Shown here: piece by piece, positions 1 to 14,736 of the stretch | Layout of the letters: each line of letters starts with the position of its first letter | Position numbering within the stretch: position 1 is the stretch's first letter | Assembly: GCA_900323505.1 (NCBI GenBank) | Contig: OOIN01000004.1 | Span: forward strand, 1-64,000 | DNA from: Ustilago trichophora | Taxonomy: Eukaryota > Basidiomycota > Ustilaginomycetes > Ustilaginales > Ustilaginaceae | Direction: 5' to 3' | Length of the DNA: 64,000 bases | Notes under the pieces: generated by a model | Told to the model about the DNA's origin: nothing | Databases searched by the model: none | Seen by the model: the letters and a program-made list of their open reading frames with translations, nothing else | Made by a program: the position numbers and the translations under genes

Positions 1-120
1 CCTAACCCTAACCCTAACCCTAACCCCTAACCCTAACCCTAACCCTAACCCTAACCCTAACCCTAACCCTAACCCTAACCCTAACCCTAACCCTAACCCT
101 AACCCTAACCCTAACCCTAA
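1..120. repeat. Telomere repeat tract (CCCTAA)n
   Basis: About twenty consecutive CCCTAA units form the left end of the window, equal to TTAGGG reading toward the chromosome end. One unit near position 24-28 carries an extra C. The tract joins unique sequence at 121 with no intervening variant repeats. This is the standard telomere repeat of many basidiomycetes, so the window starts at a true chromosome end. Confidence 0.98.
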
Positions 121-1059
121 GGCATCTCGAAAGAATCCACTGAATGCCCACCTGTTTGCAGCAGCAGAGTGTCCAGGAGGAACAAAGGGTCTGGTCCTGT
201 GGTAAAAAGATCGAGAGTTGAGGATGACCAAGTCCATAGGTTCGACAAGGATCTTGACTGAGAACTCTGGTAACTCGATCCAAGCAGCTTTTCCAAAGTT
301 GAATAAGAAGGATGGAATGCAGTCATCATTGTCGAGATGGATGCCACCTGCAAAGTTCGAGAAGAAGGCTACAGTAGTCCACCAGGGATGGAGAAGCTCG
401 ATGCTTTTGGAACCAAAGATGGATGCTAGCCACTTTCTGCCTTTGGATCGAGATGAAATGTTGCTCCTGAAGCTGGGATGGATCAAAGGTTGTGCAGTTC
501 TCATCACCAGGTCTGTGTGCATCCTTGCCCAGAAGAGAAGATCGAGTGCTTCAGGTTTGTATCGAGGGTCAGTGGTCTCCTTGGTGAAGTCCAGAGTCTG
601 TTTGCCTCGAGAGTGCCAGATTCCTAGGTGATGCTCGATGACTTTTCTCTTGGTGAGCTTGATCTTGAGCTTCTGTGTGCTGATTGTCGAGATGGGGATG
701 GGTTTCTTTGCCAGATATTGATCATAAAGGTGCTTGCCTATGAGGGAACTCTTCTTGGCTTCGAGAAACTTGGCATAGCTGGTGGGTGCAATCCTCTGGA
801 GCACGATCTCTTTGGTGTCTCTGTCTGCTAGAGTAAGGTTGGGTCGAGTTGAATGGCTGCTGCTGCCTTCTGCTAGTGCTTTGCACTCGATAAGATCAAA
901 CTGGCTGAGGTCTGTGTGCCTTTTGATATGATGTTGTCGAGACAGATCAATGTGGGTAGATTCTTCCTGGGAGTCTCGATAGCTCTGCCTCCTGCAGGCA
1001 TCTCTCTCTGCATTCCTCTTCCTCTTTCGATCCAAAGCTGCTTCACCCTTGGCTGGCAT
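1..1059 (-). CDS. Terminal TET/JBP-like 2OG-Fe(II) dioxygenase, 3' end open into telomere
   Basis: On the minus strand an ATG at 1059 opens a frame of 313 codons to position 121 that then continues into the telomere as Leu-Gly repeats (TTA GGG). After the irregular telomere unit it reads Val-Arg, so no stop codon exists before the end. Residues 1-35 are strongly basic (several Arg/Lys clusters). The C-terminal part has the double-stranded beta-helix dioxygenase signature: HLD (His241, Asp243), then NFG, LPE, a distal His near 287 in FYHR and Arg near 303 in NRWAF. The same order occurs in the dioxygenase domain of the neighbouring gene (both share H-[LF]-GIW, LPE and FFR), so the two are homologous. 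TET/JBP enzymes oxidise methylated pyrimidines in DNA; that substrate is inferred from family resemblance only. The catalytic core looks complete although the 3' end is cut by the telomere. CpG context is highly unusual (see findings). Upstream frame stops lie at 1117-1119 and 1135-1137. Confidence 0.72.
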   Translation of the reverse strand, partial: MPAKGEAALDRKRKRNAERDACRRQSYRDSQEESTHIDLSRQHHIKRHTDLSQFDLIECKALAEGSSSHSTRPNLTLADRDTKEIVLQRIAPTSYAKFLEAKKSSLIGKHLYDQYLAKKPIPISTISTQKLKIKLTKRKVIEHHLGIWHSRGKQTLDFTKETTDPRYKPEALDLLFWARMHTDLVMRTAQPLIHPSFRSNISSRSKGRKWLASIFGSKSIELLHPWWTTVAFFSNFAGGIHLDNDDCIPSFLFNFGKAAWIELPEFSVKILVEPMDLVILNSRSFYHRTRPFVPPGHSAAANRWAFSGFFRDALGLGLGLGLGLGLGLGLGLGLGLGLGLGLGLGVRVRVRVR

Positions 1060-1170
1060 GGCTGGAATGGATGATTGGATTGCTGGCAAGTGGATATGGA
1101 ACGATGATGGATGATTCTATGGTGGAGCTGGTGTCTACTGGTTGAATCTTTCTCGAGAGCCCAGCCTGGA

Positions 1171-1328
1171 GGGGGACTTGTCTCTTTCAGCCATTTTTGC
1201 TTCGACAAACAGGCAAGTCCCCCTCTGTGCTCACCAGCCAAAATTCATTGCCTGATTCTCGAAAGCAATTTTGGCTGGGGGACTTGTCATTCTGGACTCT
1301 TTTTTACAGCTCCAGAGGCAAGTCCCCC
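1171..1328. repeat. Cluster of four alternating inverted 10-mers with hairpin
   Basis: GGGGGACTTG occurs at 1171-1180 and 1277-1286, and its complement CAAGTCCCCC at 1214-1223 and 1319-1328, so orientations alternate at nearly regular spacing (43, 63 and 42 bp). The two inner copies flank a perfect 12-bp inverted repeat (CCAGCCAAAATT at 1234-1245 and its complement at 1267-1278). The copy at 1277-1286 abuts the stop codon of the helicase-dioxygenase gene (1287-1289) and the outermost copy lies in its last codons. It could act as a 3'-end or hairpin signal, or as a recombinase binding site next to a gene with a recombinase-like domain; both roles are inference. Confidence 0.75.
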
Positions 1329-4300
1329 AGCCTCACCGCACTGCTCCACCCTGCGCTTCTTTGATGCTGCTTGCCGCTCTGCCTCTTGCTCCTCCTCTGC
1401 CTTCCTTGCGTAGTATGTATGGTTGTGCTTCTTTGGCTCTCTCTGTTGCTGAAGCCCTTTGCGGAAGAAGCAGCTGATGGCCATGCGCTCTCCAGGGTCT
1501 GATCTTGCCTTTACATGAGCTGGGTGTTGGACGGTGAGGTGTTCCACGCTGTTGGAAAGGAACATGACGATGTCTTGTGGTTGCAGCTCCACTGCTATGC
1601 CATACTCTGGCAGCTGCAAGAGAGCATGTTGTCCGAGGTTGACCAGGATAGACACGTCTGCATCCTTCACGTCTTTGTGCACATTGCTGGAGAAGCCAAG
1701 GAATGGTGAGATGGTGGAGTACAGTGGGTGGCAGTACCGGTCCAGGTCATCCACTTGCTTCTCTGCCCAAGGGAAGTGGACATCCATGCGCTCTTGAAGC
1801 TCTGACCTGAAGGTATCACAGAGACCAGAGTGGCCATTCTTGATGATGGGGAGAACAAACTTGCGGGTGAACTCTTTGAACCAGATGCAGAACTCCGCCA
1901 CAGCTTGCCTGCCTTCCTCCCTGCCTGGCTGCTGAGTCTCTTCCAATAGAGTCAAGCTGACCATCATCTTGTCGTACCAGATGCCAAAGTGGTAGTGTGG
2001 AAAGTGCTGCTGCTGATCCACTGTCTGCCGAGTGTCTGCCTTGTGTTTCTTGCACTTGGCTGTCTCCATGACCTTGCGGAACAAGGTGGCACCTTTGCTA
2101 TAGCTCTTGGTCATGCTGGAGGCAGCAGACTCAGTGGCCGGACAGAAGTGCTGGAGGAAGACATTCCCGGTCTTGCTGTCCTGGAGGCTGATGTTGTGGG
2201 TGTAGACTGTGTTCTTGCAGTCATCAAAAGAGGTGATGGCCTGGCCGGTGATGATGGGCAAGGTCCAAGAGCACTTTGCCTGCCGATCCTTCTCCATTAC
2301 CTTGTACTGTTTGTCAAGGGTGTACGTCTTGGCATTGATGGACGCAAGGCTGTACTGCAGCCTCTTGATGCGCTTCTGATCTGCTTGAGAAGTGCCGCCA
2401 GGTACAGGTATGTATGTCATTGTGGTGTGATGTACCATGGGAAGTGTGATCCAACTCAAAGAGACGTGTCCAGTTTGGATTTTGATCCATCTCTTTGAGA
2501 CATGTCCAGTTTGGATTTTGATCCATCTCTTTGAGACGTGTCCAGTTTGGATTTTGATCCGTCTCTTTGAGACGGACTGATTTTGAATTTTCATCCATCT
2601 CTTTGAGACTGACTGATTCTTGGAATTTGCGCGTCTCTTTGAGATGGACCAATTTCTGAAATTTGCGCGTCTCTTTGAGATGGACTCATTCAACCTCATT
2701 GACGCGTCAGGCCTCCACTTTGTCTGCATTTTCACAGACTCTGGAAATGCAATTATTGATTTATTTTGAGAAACATGCAAAGTCTTCTATCTACATAGCC
2801 GCTGCTTCTACAGCCGCTGCAAACATGGCAAATGCCAGAAGCATACTCTCACCTTTGTAGGTCACGGCTGTACCTAGCTCACCTTGTACCACTACCGCAT
2901 GTGGGTCCATCTGATCCAAGCCAATCAACCGCAGCACATTGGCAGTGTGCTCTCTGCATCTGAGCACTGCCGCAACTACGGGCAGCACAATGTCAGCATA
3001 CCTGCGTGAGCATGCTGTAGAATTGGTTGAGCTGGTGTTGGCGCAAATGTTGATGGGAACCAGACATGCGTAACAAGCAATGTGCTTTGCTTTCTGCATG
3101 CGGCGCTTGAGGCCGCCAATGTAGGTTGCATTGATGCGTGGCTCTGATTGTGGCAACTTGTCCTTGATTTGCGGCCAGCAGTTGCAGTTGCTGAAAGAGT
3201 GTCGGATTCCATGTTGTCCAGAGCATGTGTGCTGGTTGCGGAAGAGGTAACACAAAGAGCACACACCGGCAAGGCTCTGCAGTAGCGATCTGCTGCTTGA
3301 TGTGTCAATGTCAATGTGCACAGGTGGATGTGCCGGTGATGGACTTAGGCTGAATGCAAATGGCGGAGGCGTAAAACTGAGAACCGGCAATGCTGGCTGA
3401 AGCTGGTTTTGAGCAGTGGAGGATAATATCTGGTTTGGCGCTCCTCTGCTTGCTGAGTGCTGATGGTTCAGGTCTAGAGCTGCCGTAAAACCTTGATGCC
3501 GCCGCTGACGTGGTGTAGGTGAATCCAAGGCCGTGGTGCTGACTTGCAACCGCCTACTGCTGCTGTTTGCAGCTTGGAGTTGACCAGCAGTCTGGGTCTT
3601 GCCATTCTGCTGCCGCTCACGCTTGTCAGACTCTGGCGGTGACTCCAAGCCAATGATCTTCTTTGGCGGTGTGACTGGTCCTTCCACACGCTGCTGGCAG
3701 AGGTCGCACAGCGCAAAGTCTGGCTGGCTGAGGCAAGTCACCGGCATTCCGTCCAGATAGCGTGAGATGGCCAGACGCCGGCAAGTACGCTCCTCTATGT
3801 AGAGCTGCACCTGTGCTTCACGTGTTTGGACTCTGGTGGCCAACAGCACCGCTGATGCTCCACTGCCACTACGTCCAGCGCGTCCTGACTCTTGCACGTA
3901 ACTGACCATGTCCCATGTATCACCGCAATGGACCACCAGACTGACATGTTGCGGATTGATGCCTGTGCCGATAGCTGTTGTTCCAACAATGACGCGTTTG
4001 CCAGTGTTGGTCTCTGTGGCAGAACACCGCAACCATGTTGAAACCGTTCTCTGCTTCTGCTCCTCTGGCATGTCTGCGATCACGCAAGTGCAATTGAGAT
4101 CCTCCGCTGTGGTTTGTGCTGCAGTGGTGGACTTGCAGAAGATCATCACTGCACCGGCAGGGTGAGCTTCAAGGAGACGCTTGATTTGGAATGGCATTTC
4201 CACACTTGATGTAAGTTGCTGGACCTTGTAGGAGATGTTTTTGCGGTTGGTGGCCGCCCTGATCATGCCAGTACCATCTTGCGGGAGACAGAGTGTGGTC

Positions 4301-7300
4301 TTGAAGGTGGGAACCAGAGTTGGTGGCAGCGTAGCCGTAAGGAAGTACTGCTGCACCCGCACAGCAGAGATGAGTGCCTTGATCTTCTCCATTGCCGGAC
4401 GGAAGGTGTTTTGAGTTACGCAGACATGGCACTCATCAAAGAAGATGGCTGCCAACCGCTTCTGCTGATCCAACTCTTGCGCCCAGTTGGCAAATGCTTG
4501 ACTGTAGCAGTTCTCTGCTGCAACAAAGACCAGCTGACTGCCCTCTACTCTGTCTGCACTCCGGTAGCCTGTCCACTTGCTTGCCACAATTCCAACCCAC
4601 TGACACTGCTCCATCAGATCATCTGTGAGTGCAATGAATGGCACCACCACAATAATGACAGAGGCTGGCGGCAGCCAATGCAGCGGTGCCATGAAAAGTG
4701 CAGACTTGCCGGACCCAGTGGCCATGACAATGATCAGTGGTGTCTCCTTGGCATAGATGGCATTGAGCGCATAGGCCTGCTCCAGTGTCTTGGTGCGGTG
4801 GCTGCCGGTCACCTTGAAGAGTGCATTGCTGACTGGTTCTGCTAGCACAGCAGAGCGTGAAATGGGGGCAGCAGGCACCGCACTTGTAGCGCTTGGTGGA
4901 GCAACTTCAATTGGATGCTCCAGCCTTTGCTTGACACACCGCATGTCCTCCTGCAAAGCATCCAGCTGCCGCTTCAGTGAAGATACTGCCTTGCAGTCAT
5001 CTCCTGCTGCCTTTCCTGCCATGAGGTGGTCATATGGCTTGACGTCCTCTTCAAAGCGGGATGGCATACCCCAGAATGCATGCCACCGCTCTGACACTTC
5101 CAACATGACATCCATGCTCTCTTGCGTGAGCTGATGCAGCATGCTTGCATCCAGGCCATAGTGCTGCTCTGCAGTCTGTGTTGAATGTCCAGCTTGAAGA
5201 TCGTGAGCGCTGTCCAACACCTCTTCTGCAGTCATGGACCTCGGACGGATGAGCTTGCGGTCAATGCTCACTGCCAGTTGCCGCCAAGTGCGCATGTTGA
5301 GGCCAGCCGTGATAGAGCTGATGTGCTCCTGGCAGAGTGCTTGCAGCATCTTGGTGACGGCATTTGTCTCCCATGCATTGCCGTGATGGTCCACCAAGAG
5401 CATAGAGCTGGCCGCACGGGGCTGCAGCACTGCATTATGTAGGAGATGGACAAACGGCACCACCTGAGCTACGTAAAAGACCACCATGCATCCCACTGGG
5501 TATGGCAGGAAGCGTGGAATCACCTTTTGACGTCCAGTGCCTTTCTTGCTGGGCAGAGCGGTGAAGACACTGCCATCATGCACAAAGAGGTTGCGTGGAC
5601 CAACAAGCGTGTTGGTGTGCTGCAATTGGAGCAGCTCTGTACCTCTTGCAGGCAGACCGCTACCAAGCTCAATGAGCACCGCAAGCAGCTTGGTGAATTC
5701 ATTGTGCATGCTGAAGTACGCATTGGCAGCATCTGCATCGAACTCCAACTCATCAGAGTATGGATCCATGAGGGGTTGCGCAGCAGGTACGTTACCAGCA
5801 GCAGCACGGCAGAGAACACTGCTGATGCTCTGCAGCTCCGGAGAAGCGGCCACAAAGCTGAAGTCTGGTTGCATGTTGCGGTGATCATCCAGAATGTGCT
5901 TCAGGTTGAGCGCAAGTGATGCATCCTCTGGCAAAAGGCAGAGCTGACGTAGCAAAGCTTCTGCCCGCTTTTGCGCACCATGCATCAGAGCTTGGAGACG
6001 GTCCACTTGGATGGTCTCTGTTCCAAACTTGACGCTCTTGAGATCTTGCTGCCAGGAAAAGTGGAAGTTGGTGCCATCATCTTGCGCAAGTACTGTGCCA
6101 TACCGGTGAAGGGATTGTAGGTATGAGCTGGCGGAGCTGCTGGTGCTGTACAGATAGCGCTTCATCTGTAGATCAACCTCGGCAGCAATCTCCTCAGCAG
6201 AGCGCTCAATGAGCACACCATCTTCTGGATCCAACAGCCACTGCCAGAGCACTGCACGGCAGCAGAACTCCAAGCTGGCAATGATGGACGTAGCGGCATT
6301 GACTGGAATGGGAGTGCCATCTGCGCTGACGCAGAGGTGGAGGAACAGCCGTACCAAAGCAAGCTTGTCATTCTCACCATACACCTCTGGCTGTTGCGTG
6401 ACCAAGAGGTGAGAGAGTTGGAGGAGGAGCGGCACTGCCTTGCTTGCCAGATCTTCATCAGTGAGCGGATCAATGTCTGCATCTGCACCGTAGTAAAGAT
6501 CATGCAGATCTTGCAGTACAGAGTCCAGGTGTGCGCTGAGACCAAGATGCTCAGTCTGGTCACTGTCACCGTAATAGCCAAAAGAGACACCGTCAAAGAC
6601 CGCATGGATAAGCAGAGCAAGTAAAAAGGCCCACATGTCCGCACGTTTCTTGACTGTTGGTAGGCTGAGGTTGTACGGCTGGCTTGGTTCAGGACTGTAG
6701 GCACGGAAAGTCTGTTGCACCTGCCTGCCAGTCTTGAGGAAAGCCGTCATCCATGTTGCGGCTGCTTGCTGTGTCATGACCAATACCCAATGGACAAAGT
6801 CTATATGAGCACCAGGCCACACCTTTTTTGACTTGCTGAGTGCGCCAATGGCCACAATAGGCTTGCCAGCCCAGTACGCATGCCAACCCAGCTGCTTGGC
6901 CCAAGGACCAATGTTGCCGCTGGCAGATTCAGGCTGAATGCCTGGCTTGAGCAGGTCTGCTTCACGGAGGCAATCTTCATTCTGCTTGAGGAAGGCATCC
7001 ACCTTTGTCTTGATATTGGCGCTGATGGTGCTTGCATCCAGAGCGGTGGTGAGAATGGCAGGAGGCGGTGTGGGATCCAGATCTTGATTGCGGACGTGAA
7101 GGTAGCGGATCTTCTTGCCGCACTCGTGCAACTTCTGCATGGGAACAGGATGGGTGTACGATGCTCTGCCTTTAGCATCAGGATGCCCACGCAGATGCTC
7201 GTAGAAAGCAGACTTGGCTTGGACGGCATAGGAGCACAAGTTGCAGCGGTAGCCTTGGAAGAGCTCACCCAGCTCAGGAATCATGCGCTCTGGCAGAAGA

Positions 7301-7780
7301 TCCTTGTTGATGCAGACCGTGCCAGGAGACGGTACATCCAGTTCATCAAGGAGGCTACGCAGCATCTCCTTGGCAGACCCAACCAGCGGCTTCTTGTGGA
7401 CCTTCTTGATGTGAGCCGTGACGTGCTTGAAGTCTGGGATGAGCGGCAATTGAGGACAACAGCTGTCCAGGGTGCAGAGCAGGATGCGGGGATGGTCCAC
7501 CAAGCGTAAGTTGAAGCGTGCCAGCTGAGCGGTGTGCTGAGGATCCACTGGAGTGGAAATGGCGGTTTCTTGATTTGCGGCTTGGTTGGCAGCAGGGAGA
7601 GCGTGACTGAATTCAAAAAATGCAAATAGTGATGTCAGCTGCTGATCATTGATGATGCGTGGTGATGATTGCCCAAACATACCTGTCCGTATCACTGACT
7701 GCGTCAATTGTGTCGATGCCTGCATCAACAAGTTCAGCAGCAAGTACGCTGTCATCAGGATGGAAAGATTGCTGAGACAT
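1287..7780 (-). CDS. Telomere-linked OrsD/Tyr-recombinase/RecQ helicase/2OG-dioxygenase fusion
   Basis: Three exons are proposed: 7780-7683, 7606-2853 and 2740-1287. Introns of 76 nt (donor gtatgt, acceptor cag) and 112 nt (donor gtgaga, acceptor cag) keep frame exactly, giving 2,101 residues. The start ATG at 7780 is chosen because the long frame upstream of exon 2 has no fitting ATG. Approximate domains: C2H2 and OrsD-like fingers 75-175 (YRCNLC...HLRGH); tyrosine-recombinase-like domain 640-870 with Arg in LPARGTELL (about 687), a KKGTGRQK hairpin, RTWRQ, and GHS...HYG (Tyr about 849); RecQ-type helicase 970-1310 with Walker A ATGSGKS (about 994), DECH (about 1089) and motif VI ESGRAGRSG (about 1270); Cys/His-rich segment 1460-1560; 12-residue basic repeats 1629-1712; dioxygenase about 1724-2060 with HKD (His about 1971), LPE, distal His about 2017 and Arg about 2035; basic tail. 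RecQ-like genes are known in Ustilago telomere-associated sequences. The dioxygenase fusion is inferred from splice phase. If intron 2 is retained, translation stops at 2791. Confidence 0.7.
2455..2707. repeat. Tandem array of about seven 36-bp units
   Basis: Units beginning CTCTTTGAGA recur every 36 bp at 2491, 2527, 2563, 2599, 2635 and 2671, with a partial unit before 2491. Neighbouring units toward the low-coordinate side are nearly identical (differences such as CATG/CGTG), while units toward 2700 are more diverged. Read on the minus strand in the dioxygenase frame each unit encodes 12 residues of the pattern SKRW-I-KIQ, strongly basic. The period is a multiple of three, so unit number can vary without breaking the frame. 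Confidence 0.9.
2741..2852 (-). other. Predicted phase-1 intron joining helicase to dioxygenase
   Basis: On the minus strand AAAG|gtgaga at 2853/2852 and tttccag|AG at 2741/2740 define a 112-nt intron. Splicing converts the helicase frame, which would otherwise stop at 2791, directly into the dioxygenase frame. The dioxygenase frame has no ATG between its upstream limit and this acceptor, which favours its being an internal exon. A second possible acceptor (atgcag, about 14 nt downstream) leads to an early stop. Confidence 0.65.
7607..7682 (-). other. Predicted intron 1 of the telomere-linked helicase gene
   Basis: The donor GACAG|gtatgt at 7683/7682 and acceptor gaattcag|T at 7607/7606 give a 76-nt intron. 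It joins an ATG-initiated 98-nt first exon in phase 2 to the long helicase exon. Without it the long frame would lack a plausible ATG near its upstream end. Confidence 0.7.
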
Positions 7781-9300
7781 GGTTGAAGAATTTGCTGGCG
7801 GTGGATAAAAGTGGTAGAGTACGGTAGAGAGAAGCTGGAATGGATTGTTGGATTGATGAGCAATGATGGTCAGCAACGGTCAGAAAGGCACAGTATATAT
7901 GCTTCAGAGGAGACAAGCAGCGCACATAGCAAGCACAGTCAGACGTACACTGTCAAGGATTCCAGCAAGCGTAACGGGTTACAGCAACAGCCACTTGAAG
8001 CACTCAATGTGTCCAAGAGGGAAACGTACAAAGGTAAGATGGTTTCACTTGCACTCACGCTCATGCAGACACACACTGCAAAGCAAACAAGTCAAGAAAG
8101 GATAGTGCAGAGCTGTGAGCGGTGTGGAAAATTTTGTTTCAGTGACCGTAAAGCAATCAAGTCAAGAAAGGATAGCGCAGAGCTGTGAGCGGTGTGGAAA
8201 ATTTTGTTTCAGTGACGGACAGACAAAGCTGTGCAGTGAGCAACAAGCAGACAAAGATCTGTGGTGTGTGACGGACAATGGACAACAGACAAAGGTGTAC
8301 AGCGTGTGAAGGACAGACAAGGGTGTGGGTGCATGGCGGACAAAGGACAAGTACGTCAAAGTCAAGCTGTGAGAAAAGCTGTCCGTCAAACACAAAGCAA
8401 ACTCAAAGCAAAGGTCCGCACTTGGGAGCATCTGAGTTAGCTTTGTTGGTTCCAGTCGTGAGAGTCATTTACTGTTGTCTCAACATTGTCCTTCACACGC
8501 TTCCAGACAAAGGAGCCATGACTTGACGGACCAGCCGCTGTTCAGAGTGCTGTTGAAGGACGTACATGCTGCCAAGTTGAATTCACTGAAATTTGACGCG
8601 TCTGTCAGTCAGTCAGCGCAGAGTCAAATTGTGTGCGGTGCAATGAGAGTCCGTCTACTCATACCCAGACGCGTCACGCTCCTTGCTCCAAGGACACATT
8701 GCGCTCTCAATTTTGAGGCCAGCATTCTGATCAGAATTTTTGGCAGGCATGATTTTTGACATTGTCTGTCAATGTTTGTATTTGAGTTTTGTCCGTCTGC
8801 TGCAGTCCATGGGTACACATTGGTTGCCGTCACACACCTGACTGCTGTGTGTGCTTGCAGCAGGAATCACTTCCTCAATCACGTCTGCCAGTCAGTCACG
8901 TCTGTCACGTCACCAAGCTTGTCAGTCAGTCAGTCATGTCCGTCACTCATCCTGTCTGCCAGTCAGTGAAGTGACAGACAGCTCAGTGAGTCTGCTGGAG
9001 GAGTGGGCCGCTCAGCCAAAAAGTTGGATTGGTCTGTCAGGCACTAGAGCAGTGTGGGTGAGCGTGTCTGTCACGCTAGCAATTTCCCTGAATTTTGACG
9101 CGTCCGTCACCCACCTGTCCGCTGCCCAGCCAAGGAAAAAGAATTTTCCGTTGCGGCACTGCACCAGTGTTTTTTGACGCGTCCCTCAGGCTGACGGAGC
9201 GCGGTCAGGTTGGCCATTTTGGCGGGACGGACTGGTGCTTCTCCCGCGGCTGGCGCACCACGGCCTAGGGCTAGGGAGGTGAAAACGAGTCCAGGGGTGC
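7781..9300. promoter_or_regulatory. Upstream region of the telomere-linked helicase gene
   Basis: No convincing coding region is seen. A TATATAT run at 7894-7900 lies about 115 bp upstream of the ATG at 7780 and could be a TATA element. The stretch 8081-9000 is dominated by short GACAAAG, GACAGACA and GTCAGTCA motifs. ACGCGT hexamers, the core of the MluI cell-cycle box, occur at 8596, 8669, 9098 and 9177, three of them preceded by TTTG or TTTTG. TCGA is absent throughout. Around 9,300 the composition changes to that of the rest of the window, so this is a reasonable inner boundary of the telomere-associated sequence. Confidence 0.5.
8081..8216. repeat. Tandem duplication, 70-bp period
   Basis: A block starting AAGCAAACAAGTCAAGAAAG at 8081 is repeated at 8151 with few differences (for example GATAGTG versus GATAGCG), covering GAGCGGTGTGGAAAATTTTG in both copies. 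It lies in the non-coding upstream region of the helicase gene. Confidence 0.9.
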
Positions 9301-10853
9301 GAGTCCGGTCGAAGAGCGAGGAGGAGGGCTGAGAAGAAGGTGCTTGGCGCCAAGATTGAATCGACGAAGTGGTGGGCCGGGGGAGGAGCAGGCTAGCAAG
9401 AAGGAGAGCTTGAGGATTGTAGTGCGGTGGCTGGGAAGCGTACGGCAAAGACGAGCAAGGCACGACCGAGGAAATGGTCCAGAGTGCCGTCAAATGGGTC
9501 GTGGGAGCCTGGTGTGACGTTGCATAGGTCACGAGAGCGTGCCAAAACTGAAGGAAGGGACGAAAGAAAAGAAGCCGGAACCGAGATCCAGGATGTCCGA
9601 AACTGTAGGGGAAGTGCAGTCGAATAACGTGTTGGCGGTAATGAGCGCCTGTGTCGACCGTTTGGAGCACAAATAGCCTGAGAGATGGTCGTAAAGCGCT
9701 GTGAAGGAAAGTGAAGGAATGAATTGCGAAGGTCGAAAGCGGATGGAAATGGTCGAAGAACAGTCGTACGACCGCAGTGGCGAGCAGCGCTTGTTCTGCG
9801 AGCAGCTGCGGCGTGGTGATTAGCGCTTTGTGGCCGTGTAGAGGCCGGACACTGAGAATGATGCAAAGAGGTGGGAAAAGTTGAAAAAGTCGAAACTAAT
9901 GAAGGAGATGTTGAAAGGTAGAACCGGTTAAGAAAGGCTGATGAGCGGTCGTGAGACCGCAGAAACGAGCAGCGCCTTGTCTGCGAGTGGTGTCGTTGTG
10001 CTGACGCGGCTTGTAGCAATCAGCAGTGATGAGCGAAAGAAAGAAAGACCAAATCGCAAGGCGATTGGCATGAGTGATGATGATGGTAAGAAAGCAGGCT
10101 GTGTTGACGAGAGTGCAAAGATTTGACTGAGCGCGCGCGCTCAGTCACAACTCTTGTGCGGCTTTGCTGAGTGATCATGTGCGCAGCCACGTGCCACACG
10201 CTCCAGTGAAGCTAGCGCTTGCCAACCAAGCGCTCTGCAGTGACGAGTGTGTGCACTTGACTGAGCGCACATACACTCGCACACCAAAAGCCGAGTTTTG
10301 TGAGACTGAGCCACTTGGCCAACACAACGCATTGAAACAAGCAAATTATATCTGCTACTCCAGAGTTGTGGATCGCGTGTGTGGGAGATTCCCTTTGCTG
10401 AAATGTGGAATCTTGCCGAGATTTCCAACAGAAATTTGTCAAAATACTTGCGTATTCCAACAAGACCTTGGCCGAGAGTGAGCAGTCAGCGCATCAAAGC
10501 TCAGTTAACTCGCAGACACTCGCTCAATCTCTTTCTCTCTTACTATCATCATCATCGACCAACACTGGCCGGAAGGCAGTGTTTCTTCAATTTACCCGCC
10601 TCGCCCGTCCCTCTTGTCCGCATCTGTTTGCATTCTTTTGCTTCTGCATTTCCTTATCCTTCATCTTAGTAGGTCTCACGCATGTTTTGCCGCTCTCACA
10701 CGATGCTCAACCATCCGTGCCCTGTACAGCCATGGCTGGGAGCTTGCAAGTGACTTGGGGTTAGTAAAAAAACATGAACAATAGGTATATGGTGCCCTTT
10801 CTTCCGCCTTGTCAGTTTCTTGCCAAAGACAAGTCTTGATGGTAAGACTTGGA
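9301..10853. other. Intergenic region without a supported gene
   Basis: Open frames here are low-complexity Ser/Pro/Arg-rich shadows with no recognisable domain. Two imperfect direct copies of a roughly 50-bp block (about 9,759-9,810 and 9,944-9,995, sharing ACCGCAG, GAGCAGCGC and TCTGCGAG) are present. A 24-bp perfect palindrome centred in a GC run lies at 10,124-10,147, and the motif TTGACTGAGCGC is repeated at about 10,257. Confidence 0.5.
10124..10147. repeat. 24-bp perfect palindrome with alternating GC core
   Basis: GACTGA, then five GC dinucleotides, then TCAGTC form a perfect palindrome extended by one T/A pair on each side. It could form a cruciform or bind a dimeric protein; no function can be assigned. 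Confidence 0.9.
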
Positions 10854-13800
10854 CTAGGACGTCGACGGGCCAAAGCGCACGAGCTTGCCTTTGCCTCGAA
10901 GCTCATTATCATGCCAAGCGAGCTGCTGAGCGGGACTGAGATGCTTAATGTATCGCGCCTTGGCCGTTTCAAATCGGGCGCTCGAGATGGAGTCAAATTG
11001 ACCAAGTAGCAGCCAGAATGGTTCCTTGGCTTGGTCGGGAAGAGCGCTCAAGAGCGGAAAGTTCGCCTCGTCGGAACCCTTGACATACCAGTGGTGTCGT
11101 ACTTGCAAACACAATGGCGACAATGATGGGCAGCAACTGCCCAGCGACGCTTTGTTGCGAGGTCGCTTGTTCGATGTCCTGTCGGCTTGAGCTTCTGGCG
11201 CCTCGTCTTTGCCTGCTGCCTGTTCGCTGAATGTGAATCTTCTCCGAGAGTACTGGTGGCCATCGTGTTGACGCAGGCCCTTGAGATCAATAAAGAGCTC
11301 AACACACGGCGTTGGCTGCGAGAGATTGGACAAGCGGGGCCCAACGGGACCTTTTTTGACCTCGTCCGGAATACTGATACAGTTCTTGACTTGGATCGCA
11401 ACGTAGGACAACTTTTGTGCATCAAAGCGATCGTGGCCCATTGGAGGCTTATCGGTCTCTGGAGTGTGGTAGACGGGGATCAAGAGGTCCCAACCAGGTT
11501 GATTGACAGGGCCTTGAGCAGCTGCGTGCCGAAGCCAGAGCTCGGGCAGAAGCGTTGGATCGATCTCCCTGGCTTGGGACACCTGTTTTTCGAGCACGAC
11601 AATGTGCTTGAAGTTGATCCATGCGCGCTCTGCCCAGAGTCGATACTCGGCAGTGCCAGAACTTTTTGCGTCTGCTTGGGCCGAGGTCGATGACAAGCGA
11701 GAGTCATTCTTATCGTCACTGCCTGCAGACGAGGGCGGCGGCCACGGCACCTCGACGTGGTGATTACCGATTAGCGTCTCCAACCATCTGGCAACCGTGA
11801 TCGGGGCCACGACAGCCTCGTGATAATTATCTGCGGCGGCGTAGGGCATGCTGCTCTGATCAAGTAAGTTTTTGTACATAGACCTTGCGACTATGTCGGC
11901 TGCCATGGTGCAAAGCAGCATGACACCTTGCTCGCCTTGAGCACCCACATCGATACCGAGAGGAGCTCGAGTGGCGACAAGGGCTTGGATGACCGTTCCC
12001 CATTTTTCGATAGGTGTCGGAGTTCCACAGCGGAAGTTCCAAGCAGCGGCAACGCTGAGGGGAGGCTCCGACGGGGTGCTGGTAATCACAGTCTCCGAGG
12101 TGCTCGAGATGTAGCTGATGTAGCGGAGATGTTGCGAGATCTGCTCTTGGACAAAGCTGTAGAACGAATTCGTGCCGGAACTGGCCGGAAGCTGGATGCG
12201 GATTCGTTGCGAGGCGAGGGCGAGGAAGTTTTGATTGTTCTGATCGAGCGGAGAGTCGTGGACATTCGTTAACGCAGGCCATTCCCAGCCGGCTGGGCTC
12301 ACCAGCTTGGTGATCATGTTGCGAGGCTGAAGATAGCCTTCGGAATGGTACAAGGCGTCGTTCCACAAGGGCCGACCGAGTTTGGGCAGCAAAAGATCGA
12401 GATGGCATAGATCCAGATGGTGATCGCAAGTGGCCAGGCTGCCAATCTCTTGGCGGTCTTGGTCGGTCAGGTTGATGTCGGTAGGCATGGCGGAGAAGGA
12501 CTCGCAAAGTTGGTGCGTGCCACCCTCCTCCATGCGGCGCGAAGCCTTGCGGACGACTTTGCCAGCTAGAGGAGCCAGATCGGAATTGGTGTCGATGAGC
12601 AAGATCCAAGTGTTTGCCGGGCACGCACGAAACCATAGACGACGGATGACAGGTAGCAAGGCAGCGATGGATCCGCATTCATCGAAGGCGAGGAAAGGAA
12701 AAGTGGGGCGGACCGTCTTGGGTGTCAGGGCTTCGAGCTCCAGGACGCTGGGCCGAAGAAAGGTATGGACGGCTTTCATGGTGCACTCGGGTCTGGAGAG
12801 GAGCGGACGGCATTGTTCGCAGAGCTGGGCGTAATAGTGCTGGGCGTGGTTGGAGATGTGCTTGAGCATCTCGGTTCGGAATCGGGTGGTGAGAATGTGG
12901 GGAGCATGTTGACGTGCAGCCCTGATGTCGGCGGGAGCTTGATCCCCGAGATTAAAGACCTTTGGGGACTCCGGCATCGAATGGGTCGGAGGCGAAAGGA
13001 CCAGACGTTCAAGTGTTTGCTTGCTTCGTGGACACAACGACTCTGGCGAACCAAAGTGAGACATGGGAACAAATTTGGAAGAAGGTGACGAATGGATGGC
13101 GGTTGCGAGGTAAAAGATGACGGTATTCCAGCAGATTTGATGGTCGGATGGTTTACAGCCGTGCTTGTCGTCGAAGCAATTGGAGGCATCCTTGAGCAGG
13201 GAGAGGTAATGGGCAATTGTGTTGCAGTAGAGAGCAAGCCAAGCCAAGACATGGAGATGTGCTTTGACCGAAGACTGTTCCAAGAGGGCGTGAGACTCGA
13301 CAAAGAAGTCAAAGACATGGCTATCCTGCGAAGGGAAAGAAACCTGCTGGGATTGGGGAGGCGAATCGCGCATACAGACTAGCATGCCAGGATGGAGGAC
13401 GCTGAGCTGGACACACAATCTGGACTTGCCAAAGCCAGATGACTGAAGAAGGGGGAGTACCTTTGCATAGTAAATGCGCGCCGTGTCCTTGGTGAAGTTG
13501 GTGGCGATTGAAGACGATACGGGTTGATCGACATGACAAGAGGGTTCGGTGGGGAAGAGCGGATTGTGGACGTGTAGAAAGACGTTGATGAGATCGAGAG
13601 AGGGGCCGCGAAACCGGGTGGCGCTGAAGGAGGAAGCGACGAAGGAGAAGGGGGAGGATGGGTCTTGGGATTGACCAGACTCGAAAGCGTACTCGAGACA
13701 TCGCTCGAGACATTGGGAGGCGGGTTGAGAGCCCAGCTTGGGAGATGCAAGATCGAACTCGTCGAGGAGTGTCGAGAGCGGTTTCAGAGGTCTGAGTGTG

Positions 13801-14180
13801 AGCGACTTTCTTGTGTGGTCAAATAGGATCTCGGAAAAGGTGCGTGGAAGAGAGTGGGATTGTGCTTTCAAGAGATTGAGCAACTCTGTCCATTTAGCAT
13901 GTGTGCAGAAACACTGGAGCGAAGCGCTGCGATCATTGCGCTCGTTGTTTGCGTCAAGGGCGATGCTGAGCGCTTGAAACCAATTTCTGGTGAGTATTTG
14001 TGACATGTCCAGATATTCGCTCAATAGACGGGCAAGATTCTGTTTGCGTTCGGGTGTCGAGAGGGCTGAGGCGCGAGGAGGATCGGCATGACTGGTCGAT
14101 GCTGTCCGAGGTGGGGTGGTCGAACCTGGTGTTGAAGTCAAAGACTGCATATCGATGCGTCTTGATGGATGTCGAAGCAT
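10854..14180 (-). CDS. Large P-loop NTPase with PD-(D/E)XK-like C-terminal region (Crinkler-like)
   Basis: A single uninterrupted frame of 1,108 residues begins at ATG 14180 (an alternative Met lies 10 codons in). A Walker A-like loop SSGFGKS is near residue 247; its second Gly of the usual GxGK is replaced by Phe-Gly spacing seen as GFGKS. A Walker B-like FDECG is near residue 498, followed by a segment ending IDTNSD shared with the neighbouring paralogue. Near residues 895-930 the pattern NQPGWDLLIPVY ... SYVAIQVKN gives an Asp followed by QxK, as in many restriction-endonuclease-fold nucleases. P-loop NTPase plus endonuclease-fold modules are known in Crinkler-type proteins of fungi and oomycetes; assignment here rests on this architecture only. 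No signal peptide or membrane segment is evident. It lies between the telomere-associated block and its own diverged paralogue, so a subtelomeric duplication is likely. The start and intron-free structure look secure; the function is unknown. Confidence 0.65.
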   Translation of the reverse strand: MLRHPSRRIDMQSLTSTPGSTTPPRTASTSHADPPRASALSTPERKQNLARLLSEYLDMSQILTRNWFQALSIALDANNERNDRSASLQCFCTHAKWTELLNLLKAQSHSLPRTFSEILFDHTRKSLTLRPLKPLSTLLDEFDLASPKLGSQPASQCLERCLEYAFESGQSQDPSSPFSFVASSFSATRFRGPSLDLINVFLHVHNPLFPTEPSCHVDQPVSSSIATNFTKDTARIYYAKVLPLLQSSGFGKSRLCVQLSVLHPGMLVCMRDSPPQSQQVSFPSQDSHVFDFFVESHALLEQSSVKAHLHVLAWLALYCNTIAHYLSLLKDASNCFDDKHGCKPSDHQICWNTVIFYLATAIHSSPSSKFVPMSHFGSPESLCPRSKQTLERLVLSPPTHSMPESPKVFNLGDQAPADIRAARQHAPHILTTRFRTEMLKHISNHAQHYYAQLCEQCRPLLSRPECTMKAVHTFLRPSVLELEALTPKTVRPTFPFLAFDECGSIAALLPVIRRLWFRACPANTWILLIDTNSDLAPLAGKVVRKASRRMEEGGTHQLCESFSAMPTDINLTDQDRQEIGSLATCDHHLDLCHLDLLLPKLGRPLWNDALYHSEGYLQPRNMITKLVSPAGWEWPALTNVHDSPLDQNNQNFLALASQRIRIQLPASSGTNSFYSFVQEQISQHLRYISYISSTSETVITSTPSEPPLSVAAAWNFRCGTPTPIEKWGTVIQALVATRAPLGIDVGAQGEQGVMLLCTMAADIVARSMYKNLLDQSSMPYAAADNYHEAVVAPITVARWLETLIGNHHVEVPWPPPSSAGSDDKNDSRLSSTSAQADAKSSGTAEYRLWAERAWINFKHIVVLEKQVSQAREIDPTLLPELWLRHAAAQGPVNQPGWDLLIPVYHTPETDKPPMGHDRFDAQKLSYVAIQVKNCISIPDEVKKGPVGPRLSNLSQPTPCVELFIDLKGLRQHDGHQYSRRRFTFSEQAAGKDEAPEAQADRTSNKRPRNKASLGSCCPSLSPLCLQVRHHWYVKGSDEANFPLLSALPDQAKEPFWLLLGQFDSISSARFETAKARYIKHLSPAQQLAWHDNELRGKGKLVRFGPSTS

Positions 14181-14736
14181 GTCGCGGTGGTGGTGGCGGC
14201 GATGGTGGTCGTATTGATATCAGACATGACATTTGTTGGACACGTGTGCTTGCGCAGCACGAGTGTGACAGTTGGAAAGTTGATCGCGGGAGTGTGATAA
14301 GAGAGGGTTCGAGAGTGATGATGGTGTGTGGTTGCATGTGGTTGCATATGGTTGCATATGGTTGTTACAGACAATCCGCCCCCGCAATCTGCAGTCCATG
14401 TTAACTTCTGAGACGATTTGTCTCGGTCGAGTTTCCCACACCGCATTTTAGTCTTCCCGATTCACACAACTGAGTTCGCTTCAACAGCGATAAGATAGTA
14501 GTAGAGAAGTCTCTTGAATCCATGTAGCTGGTCTGGCATGTATATAAGTAGATCCACCTACCGCACCCCCCCAATCAATGAAGTTAGTGGCAACCCCCCC
14601 CCAAAAAAAAATATTAAGAGTCCAGAGTGTTAATTTCTCAGTCTCAAAAGGTTCGATAAAAATGTTCCAAAAATAATATTTCCCCGATGTGTTTCCCAGA
14701 ATCATTCGCATCCATCAGTGGTGAAGGATAGATGGA
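14181..14736. other. Intergenic region with eroded LTR fragments
   Basis: The span 14,477-14,550 resembles the 3' half of the 212-bp LTR found at 18,457 (it shares the CAACAGCGATA block and CATGTATATA). The span 14,628-14,697 matches its first 70 bp (TGTTAATTTCTCAG onward) with several changes. Both are in plus orientation, but the 3' part precedes the 5' part, separated by C and A homopolymers. No gene is visible. Confidence 0.6.
14628..14697 (+). mobile_element. Truncated LTR (5' 70 bp) of the copia family in this window
   Basis: The first 70 bases correspond to the LTR start at 18,457, including TTCGATAAAAATGTTC and the CCCCGATGTGTTTCCC block. Similarity ends abruptly before the AGAATCATTC sequence. 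More substitutions than between the two intact LTRs indicate an older copy. Confidence 0.75.

Follow-up and report, generated by a model that had tools for sequence, protein, structure and literature searches.

Candidate chromosome-end DNA element of Ustilago trichophora encoding a predicted tyrosine recombinase–RecQ-type helicase and linked TET-like dioxygenases

The 64,000-nucleotide stretch analysed here (the window) was the left end of Ustilago trichophora contig OOIN01000004.1 (assembly GCA_900323505.1, positions 1 to 64,000), and it opened with 120 bases of telomere repeat (CCCTAA)n (1..120, no strand), as located with a tandem repeat finder. Inward of this telomere lay a series of genes that recurred at other chromosome ends in a constant order, which, starting from a fixed centromere-side end, was as follows: the recombinase-helicase gene HEL, two or three TET-like dioxygenase genes (DO_A, DO_B, and, at longer chromosome ends, DO_C), and the telomere. 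On balance, the comparison of copies favored reading window positions 121-9276 as one telomere-shortened copy of a DNA element restricted to chromosome ends. The sample was one genome, the structures were predicted, and the evidence was sequence comparison. The assembly examined comprised 38.8 Mb in 45 contigs, whereas the published U. trichophora strains had 20.7 Mb according to two reports (PMC4966473; PMC8951962), and thus two haplotypes or subgenomes were probably both assembled.

HEL (UTRI_00931; 1637 amino acids; two exons; 2791..7780, minus strand) was delimited by protein search and translation. The helicase open frame ran from 7869 to 2794 and gave a 1692-residue translation with an ATG at 7780; removal of a 76-nt GT-AG intron (7607..7682, minus strand) from this frame reproduced the 1637-residue UTRI_00931 letter for letter, with the stop codon at 2791-2793. 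HEL displayed two domains: (i) a predicted tyrosine-recombinase catalytic domain (5155..6075, minus strand; open-frame residues about 599-905) and, following it, (ii) a RecQ-type helicase core (3832..4833, minus strand; open-frame residues 1013-1346), for which the best PDB sequence matches were RECQ1, WRN, and RECQ5 (E from 3e-16) and for which the Pfam families DEAD and Helicase_C were matched above cut-off. No RQC, HRDC, or RecQ zinc domain was found above cut-off, RecQ_Zn_bind being matched only at E 0.12 and in one of 11 sequences. In relatives, the N-terminus was C2H2 or OrsD-like.

Tyrosine recombinases are marked by the catalytic residues R, K, R, H, and Y. The domain preceding the RecQ-type core adopted the tyrosine-recombinase catalytic-domain fold in structure prediction, with R742, K776, R863, H895, and Y904 at the corresponding places. 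Across an alignment of 18 sequences of the authors' own selection, these residues were kept in 18, 17, 16, 12, and 16 sequences, respectively; the remaining six sequences had R (four) or a gap (two) at the position of H895. The first position of the HxxR motif (residue 860) was R in seven, L in four, S in four, A in one, and a gap in two, the histidine of the motif being found in none of the 18. Most of the catalytic residues were conserved as far as ascomycete relatives in this alignment, and Pfam recombinase profiles gave no match to the HEL domain at E up to 10. HEL would be a predicted tyrosine recombinase joined to a RecQ-type core, for which DNA cleavage and strand exchange are likewise predictions. 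No description of a tyrosine recombinase in telomere-linked helicases was found in the literature searched, outside which lay many subscription papers.

DO_A (377 amino acids; 1287..2420, minus strand) was defined by alignment, profile, and structure model, and it had its own conserved ATG: its open frame spanned 1287-2786, its start methionine was at 2420, and a methionine occupied the same place in all five other homologues (P0017-P0021), that of P0019 lying inside a longer gene model. DO_A scored 22.6 to 24.6 bits against Pfam Tet_JBP (PF12851), under the curated cut-off of 34.9, and the only PDB entry aligned to it in profile search was Naegleria Tet (E about 1e-4); it was thus labeled TET-like. 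2OG-FeII_Oxy_6 (PF20515) was not matched at E up to 1 in profile search. The structure model, built from seven sequences with a pLDDT (predicted local distance difference test) of 70.8, was nearest to TET2, NgTET1, basidiomycete CcTet, and CMD1, with ALKBH proteins ranking behind, and a TET fold is predicted for DO_A from this model. TET/JBP dioxygenases carry an HxD...H iron-ligand motif, and the presumed ligands H248, D250, and H294 were invariant in seven of seven sequences.

DO_B (121..1059, minus strand; methionine at 1059) was recognized from its open frame and from copies elsewhere; in the window its 3' end was lost to the telomere, while elsewhere in the genome it formed a frame of 360 codons with its own stop. 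It matched no Pfam family at E up to 1 and was called TET-like because of its similarity to DO_A. DO_C was located on the opposite strand. DNA methyltransferase matches were found at C32/C38 and, within frames longer than 2,500 codons, at C24/C19 (C numbers denote contigs), and a methylated substrate for the TET-like enzymes is thus possible from these matches. Three TET-like relatives, 38-43% identical to DO_A, were located off the chromosome ends (C1:1084335-1085294, C2:1071137-1071976, and C32:434316-435182), those of C1 and C2 being perhaps an allelic pair. The 911-kb contig C12 contained, at 903-909 kb (loci L030 and L057), a diverged cassette whose genes were ordered in the same way, with identities of 48% for the helicase, 51% for DO_A, and 62% for DO_B.

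A preliminary description of this DNA had proposed that recombinase, helicase, and dioxygenase parts were spliced into a single protein of a subtelomeric element, through an intron at 2741..2852 (minus strand). Several of its components stood: one protein did combine a RecQ-like helicase with a tyrosine recombinase, the latter as predicted from fold and residues, the dioxygenase was TET-like by its modeled fold and the PDB profile match to Naegleria Tet, and the subtelomeric element was borne out by the fixed terminus, contig-end location, and single orientation described below. The stretch 2852-2741 did start with GT and end with AG, it joined the helicase and dioxygenase frames in phase with the joined frame open, and the dioxygenase frame (1287-2786) did lack an ATG before the acceptor. 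However, the intron was rejected, since 2852-2794 encoded the conserved helicase end and the dioxygenase ATG lay further down, at 2420. An alignment of the helicase C-terminus covered the window and 10 of the 15 homologues found (P0001-P0006 and P0008-P0011, with P0001 being UTRI_00931): the post-donor segment (GESMLLAFAMFAAAVEAAAM in the window) was recognizable up to the stop in eight of the nine homologues besides UTRI_00931, while the ninth, U. hordei P0009, kept some of its residues before its gene model departed. The diverged C12 copy had GGG CAG against GGT GAG of the window and thus no donor GT; it also had stops between helicase and dioxygenase, each of which had its own start and end, and over the last 22 aligned helicase codons the proportion of synonymous differences between window and C12 (pS 0.67) exceeded that of non-synonymous ones (pN 0.29). 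The two genes were also separate in U. loliicola, where they bore the consecutive locus tags NDA16_004185 (helicase) and NDA16_004184 (dioxygenase), on contigs of equal size; such separate genes were what the preliminary description had itself named as grounds for refuting the fusion. Together with the ATG at the equivalent place in five of five dioxygenase homologues, these comparisons leave the triple fusion with almost no probability, and it is rejected.

The fixed centromere-side end of the element was placed by copy comparison at 9248..9276 (minus strand), where it began (C)CCTAGCCCTAGGCCG..., a telomere-like sequence of the form (CCCTAG)2-3; the DNA beyond was not common to other copies. 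At least 28 helicase matches were found in the genome (28 of 68 candidates were scored), 22 being full length, one of these with a stop. For eight of the 28, window included, the 1.5 kb upstream of the helicase was compared: homology to the window ended at 9275-9277 in all seven other copies, and, read telomere-ward, all eight copies began (C)CCTAGCCCTAGGCCG, the C25 copy with a third CCCTAG unit. The terminus pattern, with two mismatches at most, occurred at 38 places in the genome (control: 0). These 38 termini were distributed on 34 contig ends in a single orientation, facing the centromere (left ends: 21, all minus strand; right ends: 17, all plus strand), with two termini arranged head to tail at four ends; the 36 on contigs of known length lay 0.6-14.5 kb from the contig end. 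The right-hand termini of C9 and C19 were placed by strand, that of C19 also by a truncated DO_A. In all 22 full-length helicase matches, a terminus preceded the open frame by 1334-1406 bp. The telomeric side was variable, the copies stopping at the telomere at many different points, and telomere repeats were present at the contig ends reached by fetched loci.

The DNA flanking the fixed end was read for eight of the 38 termini (94-97 bases each). These flanks displayed no mutual alignment, except that those of L003 and L004 had an 18-base stretch in common at different distances from the joint, and no common target site was seen in the eight. Uninterrupted counterparts were readable for three junctions, C39L, C16L, and C11L: (i) the C39L flank matched four other places at 79-92%; (ii) the C16L flank belonged to an older copy, whose helicase gene was truncated there at about residue 695; and (iii) the C11L flank had one other genome match, 90% identical, at C10:63172-63263, so that C10 had about 63 kb beyond the element joint of C11, which would be a terminal deletion if C10 is the corresponding arm. 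At the joint, CCT was common to counterpart and element in C39L and C16L; in C11L, CCC was in common only after one mismatched base, which left this joint ambiguous. Window 10794-11276 recurred in C22L with 99% identity, but the joint there was a different one. Parts of window 9277-10793 matched many places at 67-96%, and the flank itself was partly repetitive.

The full-length helicase copies were 99-100% identical. Among eight of the 22, there were 11 synonymous and five non-synonymous variants (1194 and 3882 sites, respectively; p=1.6e-4), and on these counts the helicase is under purifying selection. Against the C12 copy, the non-synonymous (dN) and synonymous (dS) divergences were 0.41 and 2.1 for the helicase C-terminus, 0.28 and 1.2 for DO_B, and 0.48 and saturated for DO_A; within the 17 complete DO_A copies, three synonymous and seven non-synonymous coding variants were too few for selection to be measured. 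Broken copies, with a helicase stop or with DO_A split in two frames, were located at C30:587318-592393, C28:8164-10959, C7:1734-3261, and C11:168-1721. One helicase copy, at C35:166-3090, was only 91% identical, possibly representing a second family.

The junctions suggest that the element becomes attached where chromosome ends have broken. After such a break, the telomere-like end of the element would be joined to the exposed DNA, in many cases by way of about 3 bp (CCT), and the chromosome would thereby gain the element together with a telomere; short-homology joining of this kind would account for the single orientation with no need for a preferred target. On weaker grounds, donor DNA may be made or copied by the recombinase and helicase, and the TET-like enzymes may oxidize methylated bases and in this way keep the element open or expressed at silenced ends. 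Excision, joining, and copying of the element are all inferred from sequence. A wider proposal is possible but doubtful: the element would be a DNA-only counterpart of telomeric retroelements, capping breaks through end-specific joining by its own recombinase-helicase and escaping methylation through its base-oxidizing enzymes; its recombinase-helicase core would be Dikarya-wide, and the telomere-linked helicases of fungi would, as a class, be mobile-element recombinases.

The main rival to attachment at breaks is a passive subtelomeric repeat, similar to yeast Y', which would spread by end-to-end homologous recombination or break-induced replication and whose recombinase domain would no longer move anything. 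The 99-100% identity of full-length copies would suit such spreading, and C2L and C30L apparently presented one nested arrangement, judged from coordinates only, with an older helicase cut near residue 1240 and then a new terminus, so that some spreading by recombination is likely. Copying by homology, however, would drag along flanks of varying length, while the boundary was constant within 3 bases in eight copies with differing flanks, and most recombinase catalytic residues were conserved to ascomycetes. As the whole account, passive spreading is rather unlikely, but it has probably contributed.

A service to the host, with the telomere-linked helicase as a backup for telomere maintenance and the TET-like neighbors setting subtelomeric chromatin, is improbable. 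It would agree with the purifying selection on the helicase and with the raised expression of U. maydis telomere-linked RecQ-like genes in at least one of two ter1 mutants, as reported in one paper (PMC10532341), but it leaves the fixed end, the single orientation, and the copy attached to a cut copy unexplained; moreover, Agaricus bisporus var. bisporus lacked such helicases and had no evident telomere abnormality, according to another paper (PMC7473861). Near-identical copies at contig ends are also what an assembly artefact would yield, by stitching repeats to wrong flanks, but eight different flanks were joined at the identical place, tandem joints lay inside contigs, and related proteins were present in other smut genomes, and such an artefact is very improbable.

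Attachment of the element to broken ends can be set beside several known systems. Saccharomyces cerevisiae Y' copies join at internal telomere tracts; Y' elements are also subtelomeric, with a helicase gene and homogenized copies, whereas the flanks read here were other DNA. KDZ transposons carry TET/JBP genes in basidiomycetes, which likewise travel with mobile DNA, but the neighbor here was a predicted tyrosine recombinase-helicase; no KDZ profile match was found in the genome, but the controls were empty too, so that absence was not shown. Cryptons and Starships are likewise fungal DNA elements with a tyrosine recombinase, but they are not known to be telomere-specific or to carry a RecQ helicase, while the element here was telomere-bound, had a RecQ-type helicase, and carried a recombinase domain matched by no Pfam recombinase profile.

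Telomere-linked helicases of smut fungi have been described since 1998 according to PMC10532341, which also describes an OrsD domain in UTASb of U. maydis; for subtelomeric RecQ helicases, one paper reports the helicase core as the only domain found (PMC7473861). The element shared with these fungal genes (UTASa of Ustilago maydis; TLH) a RecQ-like core, many telomere-adjacent copies, and truncated copies, and it differed from them in having a fixed end, TET-like genes alongside, and a domain predicted to be a tyrosine recombinase. Terminons, which are giant retroelements of the Penelope-like kind found at the telomeres of rotifers, resembled it in lying at chromosome ends, in forming head-to-tail arrays, in being truncated at the telomere, and in carrying short repeats of telomere-like sequence where they attach (PMC6431247). 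They differed in three respects: (i) no reverse transcriptase was recognized here, the genes recognized in the longer copies read being the helicase and three dioxygenases, with the other, small frames not profiled; (ii) the telomere-like repeat faced the other way, on the authors' reading of strand sense; and (iii) the eight flanks read here were not telomeric. The role of telomere-linked helicases is still argued over, and the recombinase domain and fixed end make the question of whether they maintain telomeres or spread themselves directly testable. If the attachment proposed here is true, broken chromosomes would be healed without an element-borne reverse transcriptase, and a link would exist between TET-like base oxidation and a telomeric element, the genome being one that keeps DNA methyltransferase genes.

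The spacers of the element contained further repeats, to which no strand was assigned. Between helicase and DO_A, a repeat finder located tandem repeats of a 36-bp unit that contained a small hairpin (2447..2691), and the corresponding C12 spacer had 37-bp repeats (L030:1323-1508); the hairpins CGTCTC-TTT-GAGACG in the window and CGGCTC-TCA-GAGCCG in C12 differed in their arms but kept the pairing. Between DO_A and DO_B, a repeat search located two copies of the inverted repeat GGGGGACTTG...CAAGTCCCCC (1171..1223 and 1277..1328), the counterpart in C12 being GGGGGCCTTG (L030:2914-3166). The GGGGGACTTG...CAAGTCCCCC repeat also occurred at internal sites, with four inverted pairs 2.2-3.2 kb apart, and the outer flanks matched in the single internal pair read; with the repeats present at internal sites too, they were set aside as candidate recombination sites. 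Beyond the element, a minus-strand open frame of 1121 codons was located at window 10854-14219.

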